This document shows positions 57,858-64,000 of a DNA stretch of 64,000 bases, in pieces; position 1 is the first letter of the stretch, and each line of letters starts with the position of its first letter. The notes below the pieces were generated by a model. That model was given only the letters and a program-made list of their open reading frames with translations, was not told where the DNA came from and did not search any database. The stretch covers positions 1 through 64,000 of the forward strand of contig REEN01000021.1 in NCBI GenBank assembly GCA_007695015.1, written 5' to 3'. Source of the stretch: Marinilabiliales bacterium (GTDB taxonomy: Bacteria > Bacteroidota > Bacteroidia > Bacteroidales > PUMT01). A program made the translations under genes and the position numbers.

Positions 57858-57965
57858 TTATTTGGGAATAAAGCCAATTGGCAGCATATCGCCCACACGT
57901 TGTTTACCCATCTCTCCGCTTAGTATTATGGCCCCCAACGTGTCCCTGATTCCCTTGTTGTAGCT
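57858..57965 (-). pseudogene. C-terminal remnant of a carboxypeptidase-regulatory-like protein
   Basis: The minus strand encodes, up to a TAA at 57858-57860, a tail ending GDMLPIGFIPK. The intact gene at 60349 ends GDMLPIGFVPK. The DNA at 57857-57932 and 60348-60423 differs at about a dozen of 76 positions. Upstream (beyond about 57965) the similarity stops and the Fic gene begins, and no Met or signal peptide is present. It is therefore the decayed end of a paralogue, cut by the arrival or rearrangement of the Fic/MNT/HEPN island. Confidence 0.75.
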
Positions 57966-57985
57966 ATTTTTTTTTAATCGTCTCG

Positions 57986-59026
57986 TTAAAAATAAGTATT
58001 TACAGCAAAATTAAATTGGTCTATAAAAATTTCTTTAAAACTTGAAATGTTGTTCTGTTCATAAAATAAAAGCATGGCTTTCTTGTATTCAACAGAATCA
58101 ACCGTTCTGAATGACATTGGGCAATGCTTATGATTCATCAGAACAGCATTGCTAACAATTCTTGCCGTTCTTTTATTTCCATCCACAAATGGTTGGATGT
58201 ATGAAATTAAAACAAGCAGAAGTAACGCTTTCTCAAATACGTTTTCTTTGTTATTGATCAATTCGCACATATTTGAAAGGGCTTCTGAAATTTGAAACTC
58301 ATTGTCTAAGGGTCGATAATTTGTTCCTGATATACCCACTCTTCTTTTTCTTATGTTGTTGTCAACCCCGAGCTCTTTCATCAATAGACTATGTATATCT
58401 TCTATTTTCGAAACAGATAATGGAATCAGGTAGTCATGGTTTTCAATTATAAAGTCAATGGCATCTTTATGATTTAGAAGCATAATTGCTTCTTCTTTTG
58501 TTTTCCCTGATGCGGTTTCCTTTTCTTTCAGTAGTCTTTCCGTTTCCAATAGAGAGTATGTATTCCCTTCAATCTGAGACGATTTCCAACTTAAATCAAT
58601 TGCCAATCTTTCCAACTCCTTTTTGTATTCTGTTTCAGATAGCTGGGAGATGTTCTCCTTGAATTTTTTTTGAAGTAAATCTAATTGCTCCAATTCACTG
58701 GCTGCAAAAACGCTACATTCTTTAAGTGTTCCTGGTATGAGCCGTAAATTAAAACTTTCCCTGATGTCCCTTTCGTCAATTTCTTTTTCATAATACTTTT
58801 CAATGTCAACAGGATATAAAATTTCATAGGTAGGTGAAATCAAATATTTCGTTGATTTTCCCTGGCCTTTCTTTGTTAAGAGGTTTTCATCAATCAGTTT
58901 GGAAAGCATTCTCTTAACAGTAGCATAACTAATTGATGATGAAATACCTTCAAAGATTTCTTTTGAAGAAACTTCTTGCCTCTTCTTTATGAGTTCAATT
59001 ATTTCGAATTCCCTATTGTCAATCAT
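57986..59026 (-). CDS. Fic-family protein with N-terminal winged helix and substituted catalytic His
   Basis: A 346-residue protein. Residues 1-75 are a winged helix (IELIKKRQEVSSKEIFEGIS...YATVKRMLSKLIDENLLTKKGQGKS). The Fic N-terminal part follows, with SSQIEGN at 149-155 matching the inhibitory (S/T)xxxE(G/N) motif. The Fic loop is YIQPFVDGNKRTAR: Q278 takes the place of the invariant His of HxFx(D/E)GNxRxxR. The codon is CAA, so a sequencing slip would need a change at the third base only. AMP transfer should therefore be impaired. A four-site symmetric operator lies directly upstream. AT-rich gene, likely acquired. Confidence 0.88.
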   Translation of the reverse strand: MIDNREFEIIELIKKRQEVSSKEIFEGISSSISYATVKRMLSKLIDENLLTKKGQGKSTKYLISPTYEILYPVDIEKYYEKEIDERDIRESFNLRLIPGTLKECSVFAASELEQLDLLQKKFKENISQLSETEYKKELERLAIDLSWKSSQIEGNTYSLLETERLLKEKETASGKTKEEAIMLLNHKDAIDFIIENHDYLIPLSVSKIEDIHSLLMKELGVDNNIRKRRVGISGTNYRPLDNEFQISEALSNMCELINNKENVFEKALLLLVLISYIQPFVDGNKRTARIVSNAVLMNHKHCPMSFRTVDSVEYKKAMLLFYEQNNISSFKEIFIDQFNFAVNTYF

Positions 59027-59040
59027 AGAGTTATAATTTA

Positions 59041-59111
59041 CGGCTCACAAATATAATCATTATGGCTCAAATCACCACAATATTGAGCCGTATTTACTTT
59101 CAGAATGAGCC
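59041..59111 (-). promoter_or_regulatory. Symmetric four-site operator overlapping the Fic promoter
   Basis: GGCTCA at 59042-59047 and 59064-59069, and TGAGCC at 59084-59089 and 59106-59111, are mirror images around one axis between 59076 and 59077. The spacings are 22, 20 and 22 bases, about two helical turns each. The inner pair extends to GGCTCAA/TTGAGCC. On the minus strand a TATATTTG box occupies 59055-59048, directly beside the outer site and 22 bases from the ATG. The most likely user is the winged helix of the Fic protein itself, by autoregulation; this is inference. Confidence 0.7.
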
Positions 59112-59431
59112 ACAACGTTCCCATGGGTCGAGTAGGAAGAAGGAATTTCACCTTCCCCCTCTCTCACAGGCAGGGTCGAAGACTGGGGTACGCAACTATG
59201 ACATATCAACAATAATGAAATCACCCTTTCGGGGAAAACTTAGTTGGTGACTATTGCAACCCACACAAGGTCAAGAGTGCTTTTTTTTGAAAAATCACCC
59301 TGTTTGCACTATTAAAAAATTCCCGCTGAATTGCTGTTGTTTTTGCAGATGTTTGGCAAGGAGCATAAATGGATGAACATATTATGAACTCATTGAAAGT
59401 CGCGGCCCGCTCAGTGTCTTACATATTTAAC
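59112..59431. other. Gap between Fic and MNT genes with no gene
   Basis: These 320 bases hold no convincing gene. The segment from about 59125 to 59200 (a CACCTTCCCCCTCTCTCACA-like stretch) faintly recalls the flanks of group II intron reverse-transcriptase genes, but no such protein is present and I do not count it as an element. A short T-run of eight lies near 59281-59288. The rest is AT-rich. Confidence 0.4.
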
Positions 59432-59758
59432 TTATGATGTGGCTTTTGCAAATATTTCAAATCCAGTCCTTTTTATCTCATCAACAAATGGATTATCGGA
59501 GTAAAAATCATTATGCGAAATAGGATGTGGCTCAATTCGTGTGTCAATTTGAGAAGCTAACAACATTAATTGAACTTGAATATCAAAACGTTTCGAATCA
59601 TCCAAATCCCTGAAAATTAAAGCTAAATCAATATCACTGTCCAGGTTTGAGTTTCCCCTTGCATAAGAACCAAAAACATAAACAGACTCAAAATCAGGAT
59701 ACTCCTGTTGAATCAGTTTAATGTATTCTGTTATTGTTTTATTAATTGCTTTATCCAT
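59432..59758 (-). CDS. MNT-type nucleotidyltransferase (MntA-like)
   Basis: A 108-residue protein. GSYARG at 30-35 followed by SDIDLALIF (D42, D44) is the full nucleotidyltransferase motif. Small MNT proteins paired with HEPN proteins act as antitoxins by adenylylating the partner. It overlaps the HEPN gene by 28 bases (stop of the HEPN gene at 59731), so both are translated from one message with HEPN first. Substrate and role are inferred from the pairing. Confidence 0.85.
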   Translation of the reverse strand: MDKAINKTITEYIKLIQQEYPDFESVYVFGSYARGNSNLDSDIDLALIFRDLDDSKRFDIQVQLMLLASQIDTRIEPHPISHNDFYSDNPFVDEIKRTGFEIFAKATS

Positions 59759-60138
59759 TTTCTCAATTCTTCTAATTTATCAATCCATTCTTTCGTGAAT
59801 TCCGGAGTACATCGTTGCTTAAAGCTCAATTTATAATCATCATATCGAGCATTAATGTTGAATGCTGTTACTGTTACTAATTGCTCCTTTTTATCATTGT
59901 CAAGGTTTAAATCTGCTTTCTCTGCAAGTCTTAATAAATTATGGATGTATGGAGGATAATCTGATTTTACATTGACGTATAAAGCTTTTAACAATTTTTC
60001 AATCATTAAATGTCCTATAAATAAAGACCAACTGTATCTTTTGGATTTGAACATATCAATCATCGCATCGTAATCATCATCTGAATTGTCAATCCAATAT
60101 TTTATTAATCTTTCTTTGTTAATATTCTTATTCTCCAT
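59731..60138 (-). CDS. HEPN-domain protein
   Basis: A 135-residue all-helical protein of the HEPN family (YWIDNSDDDYDAMIDMFKSKRYSWSLFIGHLMIEKLLKALYV, FNINARYDDYKLSFKQRC). It lacks a clear Rx4-6H motif, the usual ribonuclease signature of HEPN toxins, so RNase activity is uncertain. It is followed by its MNT partner with a 28-base overlap. Such pairs form toxin-antitoxin units in many genomes. AT-rich, in the same island as the Fic gene. Confidence 0.82.
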   Translation of the reverse strand: MENKNINKERLIKYWIDNSDDDYDAMIDMFKSKRYSWSLFIGHLMIEKLLKALYVNVKSDYPPYIHNLLRLAEKADLNLDNDKKEQLVTVTAFNINARYDDYKLSFKQRCTPEFTKEWIDKLEELRKWIKQLIKQ

Positions 60139-60143
60139 AATCT

Positions 60144-60151
60144 CAAAGATA
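60144..60151 (-). promoter_or_regulatory. TAnnTTTG box for the HEPN-MNT pair
   Basis: The minus strand reads TATCTTTG at 60151-60144, five bases before the ATG at 60138. If it is used the message would be nearly leaderless. Confidence 0.3.
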
Positions 60152-60348: not shown

Positions 60349-61404
60349 TTATTTAGGAACAAAACCAATTGGCAGCATGTCGCCCACACGTTGCCTGCCC
60401 ATATCTCCACCCAGTATTATGGCAACAGGATCGAAATAACCGCATTCCTGAAAAGAGACCCGGTCTTTAAGAAGGCGCAGAAAGCTTCTGGTGTTACGTA
60501 CTCTTCCCGTCCCACTATAACCGAAGTAGGAAATAATAAGATTTTCCGGGCACACCAGGTATTTCTGGCCCTCCTCAATGATAACTATATCTTGATAACT
60601 GAGAGAGTTACCAGCCTGATCAAGCACCGAAAATCCCTGGGCTTCGAGGTCATCAGCCCATAATGAACGAAAAAAATGCATTATCGATCCTCCGTAGACA
60701 TTGTTTCTTCTGATTTCATTAAAGCTCCCGGAAATCCTGCCTGATCCGTCATCCGTAAAAATAAACTTTCCGGTATAGATGACATTGCGGCTTCCCCGGC
60801 AATATTCGAAATTTTCGAGATAAAAGGTGATAATATACCCCAGTGCTTTATTATGGATCTGCAGAGGTTTTAAAGCGACGGCCTTTAGCGTGTCACTTTC
60901 GGATCCGTAATTGAATGTGATATCCTCCTCATTAAGTATCTCACATCTGCCGGCATATGATGTCATGCCCAGGAACTGATTCCTGAAATTTTGCAGGTTG
61001 GCCATTCTTTCCCTCTCAAGCGACCTGCCGCTTATATCGATCGCGGGTATATCATAAACCATGGGAGTTAGGTATACCAGCAGGGGTTCACTTGTGGAAA
61101 TACCTTCCAGTGATACTGAAGAGTATCCAATTGCGCTGACCGATAACGGCAATGTAGCGTGCCTGGATATATCCAGCTCAAATTCACCGTTTTCATCGGC
61201 AACAGTTCCGACTATGGTGCCGCTGAAAAATACCGAGGCAAAACTGACTGCATCGTCAGTCTGGCTGTCAATGACCGTTCCCCTGATAACCTGTCCACGA
61301 ACTTCAATTGCAGATCCTGCAATGAGCATCAACACCAGTAATATCCCGGAAGTATATCTTAGCAACATTTTGTCAATCTGATTATCACGTTTATCAGGGT
61401 ACAT
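60349..61404 (-). CDS. Carboxypeptidase-regulatory-like (CarboxypepD_reg) surface protein
   Basis: A 351-residue protein with a hydrophobic N-terminus (LLRYTSGILLVLMLIAGSAIEVRGQ) serving as a signal peptide. Residues about 45-125 are a carboxypeptidase-regulatory-like beta-sandwich (IRGTVIDSQTDDAVSFASVFFSGTIVGTVADENGEFELDI). The rest is an uncharacterised beta-rich domain ending GDMLPIGFVPK. It probably belongs with the large MG2-like protein upstream on the same strand, which stops 16 bases before the 61404 start. A later Met at 61368 is also possible. Its C-terminal DNA has a decayed second copy at 57858. Confidence 0.78.
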   Translation of the reverse strand: MYPDKRDNQIDKMLLRYTSGILLVLMLIAGSAIEVRGQVIRGTVIDSQTDDAVSFASVFFSGTIVGTVADENGEFELDISRHATLPLSVSAIGYSSVSLEGISTSEPLLVYLTPMVYDIPAIDISGRSLERERMANLQNFRNQFLGMTSYAGRCEILNEEDITFNYGSESDTLKAVALKPLQIHNKALGYIITFYLENFEYCRGSRNVIYTGKFIFTDDGSGRISGSFNEIRRNNVYGGSIMHFFRSLWADDLEAQGFSVLDQAGNSLSYQDIVIIEEGQKYLVCPENLIISYFGYSGTGRVRNTRSFLRLLKDRVSFQECGYFDPVAIILGGDMGRQRVGDMLPIGFVPK

Positions 61405-61420
61405 ATTCGCCATTTCTGTA

Positions 61421-64000
61421 TCAACGGGCATGAGCATCAGCCTCCACCCTGAACTCGCCACTTGCATAAACCGGGATGCCCGTTTCGGTCAATCCCTCAA
61501 CAATCACCCGGAAAGCAGATAACTTGTCGGACGTAAAAAATGAAACCCTTGCCCTGCCATTGCCATCAACGCTGATATCGGGGTTCCAGAAAAGGGTGGT
61601 ACGGTAATCCGGCCGGGAATCACGCGATTCGGGATCATCATAGACAGGTGAATAGAATTCACGTGCATTGTAGTATCCCGGGAACTCAAACCTTACTATC
61701 TCCGGTATGGGGGCATCCGAAAGCTGGTAATCTTCAGGGGTCTTTTCATATATGGCAATAACCGTGTGAAAGTCAGGGCCATAAAGGTAGGTTTGCGGAA
61801 ATTTCAAAACATCTATAAAGGATATTTCATCAATTCGCGAATAACCTATCTCCCTGCACTCCTGAACTTCTATTCCATTGAGAAAACATCCCACTCTCAT
61901 ACTCATTTCCCATAAGGATAGATTCCGTCTGAATAGCATGGGATGGTATTCCATTATCATATGCCAGGGATCAAAATATGAGTCCGCAAAAGGATCCTTA
62001 TCAGGTATAAGCCTGGCCCTCATAGCCATAGGGGTTCCATACCCTGTTCTTTCGAAGGCCCTTCTGTCAAAGGTTCTCTCTGCCGGCCTGCGCCTTCGTA
62101 TCTCCACCTCCTCCATCTCCAGGTGCCATATATCGTCAAGATGCGAGAGTATGGGGTCCTTCATCGAGTCTTCGAAGTAGGCCGCCATAACCTCCCCGGC
62201 AATGACGGCTGCCGGTATATCTGCCCTGCCCTGAACAAAATCCGGCTCATCTATATTGAAACGTATCCAGTTGTCCCTGCCGGCAGTGAAGTTCTCATCC
62301 AGGCCCCGCCGCGTCCTGCGCTGCTCCCTTCTTTCGCGGTAAACATTTCCCTGGAGTACCAGGTAAGTTGTATCGTAGAATTCAATCCCTTCAAACAGGA
62401 AAAGGCCATCCTCATCAGTAGTCTGGCTTGCTGAACTGAATTCCTTTCCAAGTGCCATAAGCGTTACGTTCGACCTTAAAGGGACCTCTCGCCTGTCTCT
62501 GTACGTGACCTGCCCCCTTATAACATGTCCCATGCCGGGGGGATAGAGGATTTCCGGGAAGTTGCCGGCAAGCAGATCCTCCCACCTGAACCGTCGCCAG
62601 CCGTGGGTCATCATCAGCAAATCAAGCAGAAGATGCCTGTCGGCGTTGGACGGGTCAAGGAAGTAGCCCGGGTTTTCGATATATCCCGGCAAATCGGAAC
62701 TTAATAAAAGATGGCTGACTATATTATATTGGTCATGGTGTGAGGGCACCACGTAGCTGTCGGTTACCGACAATGAAAGATTACCCGCCAGCGGATAATC
62801 AAAGTCGTCGGTCAGCTCAAGCTCAAGCTCAACCCTCTCCCTGTTGCCGTAGGTTTCTTTTGCGGCAGATACATTCAGATGTGCCATGGTATCTTCACTG
62901 CCTGTAAAAACAAGCCTTTCGGCCACCGGCAACCCGTCGGCCGAGATCAGCGTGAAATGGGCTATACCGGGTGGCAGGCCCAGTTTATCAATATGAATGA
63001 GAGCCTGATCGCCCTCTGTCAATTCTGCAAGGTAAAAAAGCTCTCCCCTGATATGCCCGGCCAGCAAAGCACCGCCAAGGCCGCCAGCCACGTTGGCCTC
63101 AACCTTTGCCAGCAACATGTCCGGCATATTGTTATTGACCTGGAATGTGTATCCCTGCAGTTTCATGGGCGGAAGCTCAAATCTGTGTCTCTTTTCTCCT
63201 TTTTCAACCACCGCATGATAATGCCTGCCGGGTAAGGGGCTAAACATAAACCGGCCAAGGCCGAAACGGCCGGTGCTAAAACTGCCGGCCGGATGCCCCA
63301 GGTCATCATATACCTGTCCGGACAACTCCACACCCCTGCCGCCGGGGCCAGCAGACTGCACCGCCACTGATGCCATAAGTCCCCCGACAAGATCGCCTCC
63401 CTCCGGGAAAAACCGCACGCTGACATGGTTTGCAGGGGAGAATCCCCCGAAAGGGTCGTCAGCGCCATCCATGCGGGCTCCCTCTGACCGGAAGTCATTG
63501 CCGGCCGCCGGACTCCTGTCTTCGGAATCAGCCGCCGACCGGAAGCCATTTCCAGCCGACGGACTCCAGCCCTCGGGGTCAGCCTCCGACCGGGGGTCAT
63601 TGCCGGCTGCCTGGCCACTGTCCCTGCGGGCACCGGGGGAGTTGGCAGTCTCTGGTGAGGCTCCGGGTGAGGATCCGCCTGAGGGGGTTTGCAGGGCATC
63701 GCCCTCGTACCTGGATATTACTCTTGCATAGGGGTCCAGCACCTTCAGCTCCATGCTGAAAAGGGGCGTATTGCTGAAATTGAGCATGTAGTTGGTATAG
63801 CCCCGCAGGATCCAGGAGCCGGATTCAAAATCAACCCCGAGCAAAAAGTCGCCGCTTCCCATGCCATCGGTTACCCGGATATAGCGCTTTTCGGCCACAA
63901 CACCAGCGGTATCGGCAAGTTCTACATAAACGATCCGGCTGTGAGGTGAAGCCTCATGGGACGATGCATCGGTAAGGTAAAGCCTGAACCAGACAGTTTC
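61421..64000 (-). CDS. Large MG2-like surface protein, 5' end outside window
   Basis: The reading frame is open to the right edge with about 859 residues visible. The first visible part (WFRLYLTDASSHE..., RYIRVTDGMGSGDFLLGVD, WILRGYTNYMLNF) resembles the MG2/macroglobulin beta-sandwich of Bacteroidota proteins that carry carboxypeptidase-like and plug-like domains. A low-complexity segment with 17-residue repeats (AAGNDPRSEADPEGW-type) separates this from several further beta-sandwich domains. The end (RAFERTGYGTPMAMRARL..., EFRVEAD) has no catalytic signature. It is likely a surface or periplasmic structural protein, co-transcribed with the shorter carboxypeptidase-regulatory-like gene 16 bases downstream. 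Confidence 0.7.
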   Translation of the reverse strand, partial: ETVWFRLYLTDASSHEASPHSRIVYVELADTAGVVAEKRYIRVTDGMGSGDFLLGVDFESGSWILRGYTNYMLNFSNTPLFSMELKVLDPYARVISRYEGDALQTPSGGSSPGASPETANSPGARRDSGQAAGNDPRSEADPEGWSPSAGNGFRSAADSEDRSPAAGNDFRSEGARMDGADDPFGGFSPANHVSVRFFPEGGDLVGGLMASVAVQSAGPGGRGVELSGQVYDDLGHPAGSFSTGRFGLGRFMFSPLPGRHYHAVVEKGEKRHRFELPPMKLQGYTFQVNNNMPDMLLAKVEANVAGGLGGALLAGHIRGELFYLAELTEGDQALIHIDKLGLPPGIAHFTLISADGLPVAERLVFTGSEDTMAHLNVSAAKETYGNRERVELELELTDDFDYPLAGNLSLSVTDSYVVPSHHDQYNIVSHLLLSSDLPGYIENPGYFLDPSNADRHLLLDLLMMTHGWRRFRWEDLLAGNFPEILYPPGMGHVIRGQVTYRDRREVPLRSNVTLMALGKEFSSASQTTDEDGLFLFEGIEFYDTTYLVLQGNVYRERREQRRTRRGLDENFTAGRDNWIRFNIDEPDFVQGRADIPAAVIAGEVMAAYFEDSMKDPILSHLDDIWHLEMEEVEIRRRRPAERTFDRRAFERTGYGTPMAMRARLIPDKDPFADSYFDPWHMIMEYHPMLFRRNLSLWEMSMRVGCFLNGIEVQECREIGYSRIDEISFIDVLKFPQTYLYGPDFHTVIAIYEKTPEDYQLSDAPIPEIVRFEFPGYYNAREFYSPVYDDPESRDSRPDYRTTLFWNPDISVDGNGRARVSFFTSDKLSAFRVIVEGLTETGIPVYASGEFRVEADAHAR
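63480..63632 (-). repeat. 51-bp in-frame repeat, about 2.7 units
   Basis: Imperfect 51-base (17-codon) units follow each other in the coding region of the MG2-like protein. The protein units are QAAGNDPRSEADPEGW, SPSAGNGFRSAADSEDR and SPAAGNDFRSEGA. It forms a hydrophilic linker between two beta-sandwich parts. Confidence 0.8.

Follow-up and report, generated by a model that had tools for sequence, protein, structure and literature searches.

Described Fic and HEPN/MNT systems

In 2015, Khater and Mohanty listed a clade of Fic/Doc proteins, D2, with the motif Qx[F/Y]x[D/E][G/V]NKR and considered that it possibly has another function; as reported, it comprised 45 proteins, usually with a single domain (PMC4454073). 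No later study of the Gln clade was found in the open-licence literature. Among Fic proteins with a DNA-binding domain, the FIC-HTH protein CccR of Y. pseudotuberculosis represses its own promoter via palindromes near the −35 and −10 elements (PMC9755527). CccR has a catalytic His192 and a C-terminal HTH, AMPylates FtsZ and is secreted by T6SS, and the H192A substitution indicated that the His is needed for toxicity (PMC9755527). The His is also needed for the toxicity of C. fetus Fic2. In the Coxiella Fic-HTH enzyme CbFic2, DNA binding changes dimerisation and activity, and binding was reported with random sequences (PMC10628234). Class II HEPN/MNT is likewise a published module, for which the paper states that no biochemistry was done (PMC7641770).

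Organization of the locus

The window analyzed here is a 64,000-nucleotide stretch of a Marinilabiliales bacterium contig (REEN01000021.1). It contains a patch with a GC content of 29–39%, compared with about 43–65% in the flanks, and the three low-GC minus-strand genes that the first-pass annotation had placed in it, namely Fic, MNT and HEPN, were all recovered as ORFs. The features of the patch and its surroundings are as follows:

57861–57953, minus strand: diverged second copy of the CarboxypepD_reg 3′ end (flanking gene, see below), at the edge of the inserted DNA
57986–59026, minus strand: wHTH-Fic(Gln) gene, 346 aa, winged helix and Fic domain (ORF, Pfam, alignment and AF2 model)
59039–59114, minus strand: predicted four-box palindromic operator, 76 bp, spacings 22/20/22
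59106–59111 and 59084–59089 (GGCTCA), 59064–59069 and 59042–59047 (TGAGCC), minus strand: operator boxes
59048–59055, minus strand: Bacteroidota-type −7 box TATATTTG of the fic promoter, located by sequence between operator boxes 3 and 4
59432–59758, minus strand: MNT nucleotidyltransferase gene, 108 aa, intact GSX10DXD motif (GSYARGNSNLDSDID)
59731–60138, minus strand: HEPN gene, 135 aa, PF05168, ARYDDY motif, without RX4-6H
60349–61467: flanking CarboxypepD_reg gene

The MNT and HEPN ORFs overlap by 28 bp. The Fic gene is located downstream of MNT, after a gap of about 406 bp, and has its own promoter and operator. The earlier description of all three genes as one cassette thus holds for the overlapping MNT and HEPN genes, but not for the Fic gene. 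A family scan of the AT-rich patch found no RNA families.

The HEPN protein matched Pfam family PF05168 (1.3e-18) and contains a conserved-Tyr motif (ARYDDY/GRYPDY) without RX4-6H (no His); a phmmer search of the PDB with it found no relative, and its own genome contains four relatives. The MNT protein, whose GS-x10-DID active-site motif is intact as had been noted, matched the Polbeta/NTP_transf_2 family (1.9e-12), and its match to the MntA_antitoxin model (7.4e-12) was below the cut-off. MNT adjoins HEPN in all HEPN loci except L047, which is cut at the contig end, and a few of the HEPN genes in these loci are broken or too short for ORF recognition. A PF05168 HEPN lacking RX4HXY, with a conserved Tyr and an adjacent GSX10DXD MNT, has the features of Class II HEPN/MNT. 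Judged by its sequence, the window pair is an ordinary Class II toxin–antitoxin-type pair, in which nothing unusual was seen. By analogy with the family, the conserved Tyr of HEPN is most likely the residue that its MNT partner nucleotidylates; the action of MNT on HEPN that had been proposed for this locus is the relation expected for HEPN/MNT (PMC7641770).

Linkage of Fic and HEPN-MNT

Co-occurrence was evaluated in 395 genomes of the class, with thresholds of E ≤ 1e-30 for Fic relatives and E ≤ 1e-6 for HEPN relatives. Fic was found in 42 genomes and HEPN in 19; 3 genomes contained both, compared with about 2 expected by chance, and the window was the only case among the 395 genomes with both on one contig. 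A set of 124 Fic loci was also compared (flanks of 1.5 to 5 kb, some loci being the same place from two collections): HEPN was near Fic in one, which is the window itself, and MNT-family ORFs beyond the window were found in two, L088 and, as a weak match, L022. HEPN-MNT pairs occur elsewhere without Fic, and none of twelve genomes of the same genus, several of which are incomplete, contains the Fic gene.

Recurrent Fic-MNT-HEPN linkage was therefore not found (1 of 124 loci, genome overlap at chance level), and a three-gene system was rejected on these counts. The first-pass annotation had proposed such a combined system, to be checked by counting three-gene co-occurrence across genomes, and had named Fic without MNT/HEPN as a rule in related genomes as the outcome that would speak against it. 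This count was run and that outcome was observed, as was HEPN-MNT without Fic. The patch consists of two separate mobile modules, the HEPN-MNT pair and a lone Fic gene, and Fic is an incidental neighbour of the pair. The counts correct a three-gene account that is attractive but mistaken.

Genomic context and insertion site

The neighbours of Fic are scattered toxin–antitoxin, methylase and housekeeping genes, and a PADLOC search of 134 neighbours gave scattered single matches only. Any given neighbour family was present at 5 of the 85 loci at most, so that a conserved neighbour serving as a Fic partner or antitoxin was rejected. The distribution of Fic is patchy across families, with copies in a prophage and on a plasmid. 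In related viral contigs, Fic lies inside the structural module; in L143 it is located just before the head maturation protease gene, with the portal gene further on. Phage genome records contained one distant Fic, seemingly without the wHTH. Note that a Helicobacter bizzozeronii prophage (L218) carries a Fic(Gln) with the motif LQFFEDCNKR, seemingly without a winged helix, after terminase and portal genes.

Decayed Fic copies with a surviving operator were found in G250, G352 and G371, and a wHTH remnant was found in G251; by sequence, the Fic module is often lost by decay. The loci L208, L215, L216 and L209 comprise broken Fic genes with their operator still present, plus a remnant that has only the wHTH.

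The duplicate at 57861–57953 is ~87% identical to the allele of the congener G398 and slightly less so to the flanking CarboxypepD_reg gene of its own genome, which suggests, at the sequence level, integration at the 3′ end of the gene or recombination with congener DNA. In another congener (L225, G399:C290, 1026–3120), the same interval is bounded by an anSME-type radical SAM gene and a CarboxypepD gene and holds SUMF1-like and PIN-domain (VapC-like) genes. The insertion site is a variable spot for toxin–antitoxin-type modules, and the HEPN-MNT and Fic modules arrived either independently or together by chance.

The Fic(Gln) protein family

The Fic protein matched PF02661 (1.5e-16) and, with its N-terminal winged helix, Penicillinase_R (PF03965, 8.7e-8); the recognition helix reads SYATVKR (residues 33–39). 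The AF2 model (pLDDT 87.7) matched FICD and SoFic with a Foldseek probability of 1.00 and a TM score of up to about 0.6, in agreement with the Fic fold. N-terminal of the core, the inhibitory-helix motif SSQIEGN with an intact E153 was found, which corresponds to the (S/T)xxxE(G/N) motif of Class II Fic proteins and is invariant in the alignment A1. The Fic motif (SYIQPFVDGNKRTARI) reads QPFVDGNKR with Gln278 at the His position; the HxFx[D/E]GN[G/K]R motif of Fic AMP-transferases, with its catalytic His, is thus absent, as had been recognized earlier. The surroundings of the active site (E153, the GTNY flap, DGNKR and R289) are nearly invariant in A1, and the N-terminal wHTH aligned across the Bacteroidota members.

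A scan of genome contigs revealed at least 575 Fic relatives, many of the source genomes being MAGs. The best 80 of them are mostly from Bacteroidota and also include MAGs labelled Cloacimonadota, Chlorobiota, Ignavibacteria, Neomarinimicrobiota and Clostridiales, some of which could be mislabelled by binning. Gln occupies the His position in 108 of 109 distinct relatives; the sole exception, L009, has Asp and an in-frame stop in the wHTH. SSQIEGNTY was likewise present in 108 of 109 distinct proteins. The Gln persists even in relatives of only ~30% identity, which are encoded on proteobacterial plasmids and viral contigs and often read QPFxDVNKR, so that proteobacterial members also lose the Gly of the motif. 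Lone decay of the catalytic His was therefore rejected: what could be taken for degeneration at this locus is a fixed trait of an old clade (PMC4454073). Since the conservation is fixed across the clade, these sequences suggest that Gln was selected rather than reached by drift.

The predicted operator and its covariation with the recognition helix

In the window, the array GGCTCA-22-GGCTCA-20-TGAGCC-22-TGAGCC surrounds the −7 box. A TGAGCY pair at exactly 22 bp was found in 90 of the 106 loci with upstream sequence (about 85%), and an inverted box 19–21 bp before the direct pair in 82; about 15% of loci have no exact TGAGC pair. Alignment of 88 loci gave the consensus WWTnnRGCTCA-22-WWTnnRGCTCA-20-TGAGCYnnAWW-22-TGAGCYnnAWW, with the −7 box TAtaTTTG conserved between boxes 3 and 4; these loci were selected by the TGAGCY pair, which makes the conservation of boxes 3 and 4 a consequence of the selection, but not that of boxes 1 and 2, A9 and the −7 box. 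A was found at half-site position 9 in 182 of 182 half-sites, and box 4 is located 12–14 bp before the ATG in most loci. Sequence relatedness inflates these conservation counts.

Proteobacterial relatives have other spacings (21, 29), and the exact four-box architecture is therefore a feature of the Bacteroidota branch. On Sulfitobacter plasmids (L174 and L220), AATCGTTTCA repeats, some of them spaced by 21 bp, were seen about 180 bp before fic; such repeats suggest a similar operator design in the alphaproteobacterial relatives. Two four-box arrays without a Fic gene were found (G172 and G162). In genomes without a full Fic match, complete arrays lacking a nearby Fic were noted at L206 (1549–1625) and L207 (3240–3315), which may be scars of lost modules or decoys.

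Variant half-sites were found together with variant recognition helices, as follows:

TGTCCGATA: helix SAKTTKR (L028)
TGAGGAGAA: helix AYATIGR (L144)
TGAGCGATA: helix SIATLKR (L024)
TGATAGGAT: helices QPTLNRD/IPTLNRE (L152, L150)
GGTCAGTA: helix GSTTLKL (L156)
GAACGAAA: helix STLKRRL (L153)

In the variant loci, 22 bp was the best or tied best among spacings of 15–30, and 0–6 of 300 shuffles reached the score; the 22-bp register is weak in L151 and absent from the plasmid copy L173. Within the TGAGC group, the core is mostly followed by [GA]AAT where the helix is SIAT/SLAT, and SYAT helices tolerate more at these positions. The chief reason to expect that each protein would bind its own operator is this covariation, which is itself linked to phylogeny; its spread across subfamilies speaks against shared ancestry as the whole explanation. 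The conserved operator and the helix covariation make it very probable that the Fic protein binds DNA sequence-specifically and lacks classical Fic catalysis; the earlier proposal that the protein binds DNA gains support accordingly from sequence conservation.

Search for other operator targets

All 395 genomes were scanned for the strict pattern TGAGCYnnA-N13-TGAGCYnnA, and the matches were tallied by hand; the scan covers two-box sites only, and single-box targets would escape it. The pattern was found at fic in 32 of the 42 Fic genomes, with 3 matches elsewhere in those genomes, about 44 matches in the 353 Fic-less genomes and about 18 in all 395 genomes for the reversed-pattern control. 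With the strict two-box pattern, there was no excess of operators outside fic in the 395 genomes. The genome of the window contains the window array and four matches to a looser pattern. A regulon was rejected, as two-box operators were not above background at other genes. It had been supposed that Fic has become a regulator: self-regulation fits the operator, but a purely regulatory role is weakened by this result. Since an autoregulator needs another output, an effector with built-in autorepression is favoured over a pure regulator. Separately, four TGAGCC boxes with an 11-bp period were seen in the same genome at L167 (G000:C43, 1501–1539), near AbiE-like nucleotidyltransferase-pair genes.

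Proposed function and alternatives

The best reading, to which we assign a probability of about 0.7, is that Fic(Gln) forms an accessory module of one gene, complete in itself and self-repressed, which shares a variable intergenic site with an independent HEPN-MNT module. The protein, probably as dimers, would bind four half-sites that form two direct repeats of 22-bp spacing, inverted relative to each other, and the sequence strongly indicates that binding around the −7 box would repress its own promoter. The Fic domain keeps the inhibitory Glu, the flap and the NKR anion pocket, with Gln replacing the general base, and may bind a nucleotide or a modified target rather than run normal AMPylation. 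Engagement of the ligand would free the operator and raise Fic output. As no operator target other than fic itself was detected, the Fic domain and not a regulon is probably the effector, by analogy with CccR or a toxin with a built-in repressor. Its likeliest use is perhaps in defence or inter-element conflict.

A less probable alternative is that the Gln-Fic protein has kept transferase activity, either slow AMPylation or another transfer, and is an autorepressed single-gene toxin, CccR-like with a different catalytic residue and inhibited in cis by α-inh together with self-repression. The near-invariance of E153, the GTNY flap, DGNKR and R289 seems to exceed the needs of a mere scaffold, Khater and Mohanty argue that proteins of the Gln clade may not be inactive (PMC4454073), and an operator above background only at fic would suit such a toxin. 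However, the loss of the motif Gly in proteobacterial members speaks against activity, and because the His is needed for toxicity both in CccR (H192A) and in C. fetus Fic2, Gln most likely serves a non-classical use. A role as a one-component regulator, with nucleotide sensing by the Fic domain and further targets that have weaker or single boxes, is rather unlikely. A wHTH joined to a pseudo-enzyme with a ligand-pocket-like site does resemble such regulators, and the genome-wide scan covered two-box sites; yet the 3 matches elsewhere in Fic genomes are not above the level in Fic-less genomes, the genome of the window has few looser-pattern matches away from fic, and there is no conserved neighbour to regulate. 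A single system of Fic, MNT and HEPN, with Fic as an AMP sensor controlling the MNT-HEPN switch, is highly improbable: the genes are adjacent in the window and both families handle AMP, but co-occurrence does not exceed chance, no second linked locus was found, the promoters are separate across the 406-bp gap and congeners have no Fic.

Returning to the self-repressed one-gene module, we tentatively suggest that the wHTH-Fic(Gln) family might be a class of its own among conflict or immunity modules, each of a single gene, in which the Fic domain has turned from a transferase into a nucleotide- or target-binding sensor/effector that is held down by a self-operator, and operator specificity co-diversifies between copies, perhaps avoiding cross-repression in one cell. 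The predicted operator gives a concrete handle on the Gln clade, as it predicts the place of binding, self-repression and the helix residues that set specificity. These predictions make a reporter strain usable to look for the releasing ligand.

Comparison with known systems

The window HEPN-MNT pair shares with the published Class II module (PMC7641770) a PF05168 protein without RX4HXY, the conserved Tyr, the GSX10DXD MNT and overlapping genes, and no differences were seen. As for Fic, the replacement of His by Gln is already known, and the four-box operator is the part for which no earlier description was found: a search of the open-licence literature for a cis element of the Gln clade gave none, which is no proof of novelty. 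QPFVDGNKR in the window and QPFxDVNKR in the proteobacterial relatives represent both [G/V] alternatives of D2 (PMC4454073), whereas the members described here, at least 575 in the genome collection, have a winged helix at the N-terminus and an operator of four boxes. CbFic2 (PMC10628234) and SoFic (SO_4266) are also Class II Fic proteins with α-inh, CbFic2 having an HTH as well; unlike the window Fic, they have the catalytic His and a different domain order. CbFic2 is the nearest precedent for the coupling of DNA binding to the state of Fic (PMC10628234). In CccR (PMC9755527), as in the window protein, a FIC and a DNA-binding domain are combined in one chain and palindromic sites, here recognized from sequence, lie over the gene's own promoter; the window protein differs in its N-terminal wHTH, Gln in place of His and four half-sites. 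By this analogy, the Fic(Gln) module appears closest in its logic to CccR, which among FIC proteins offers the nearest precedent for autorepression.
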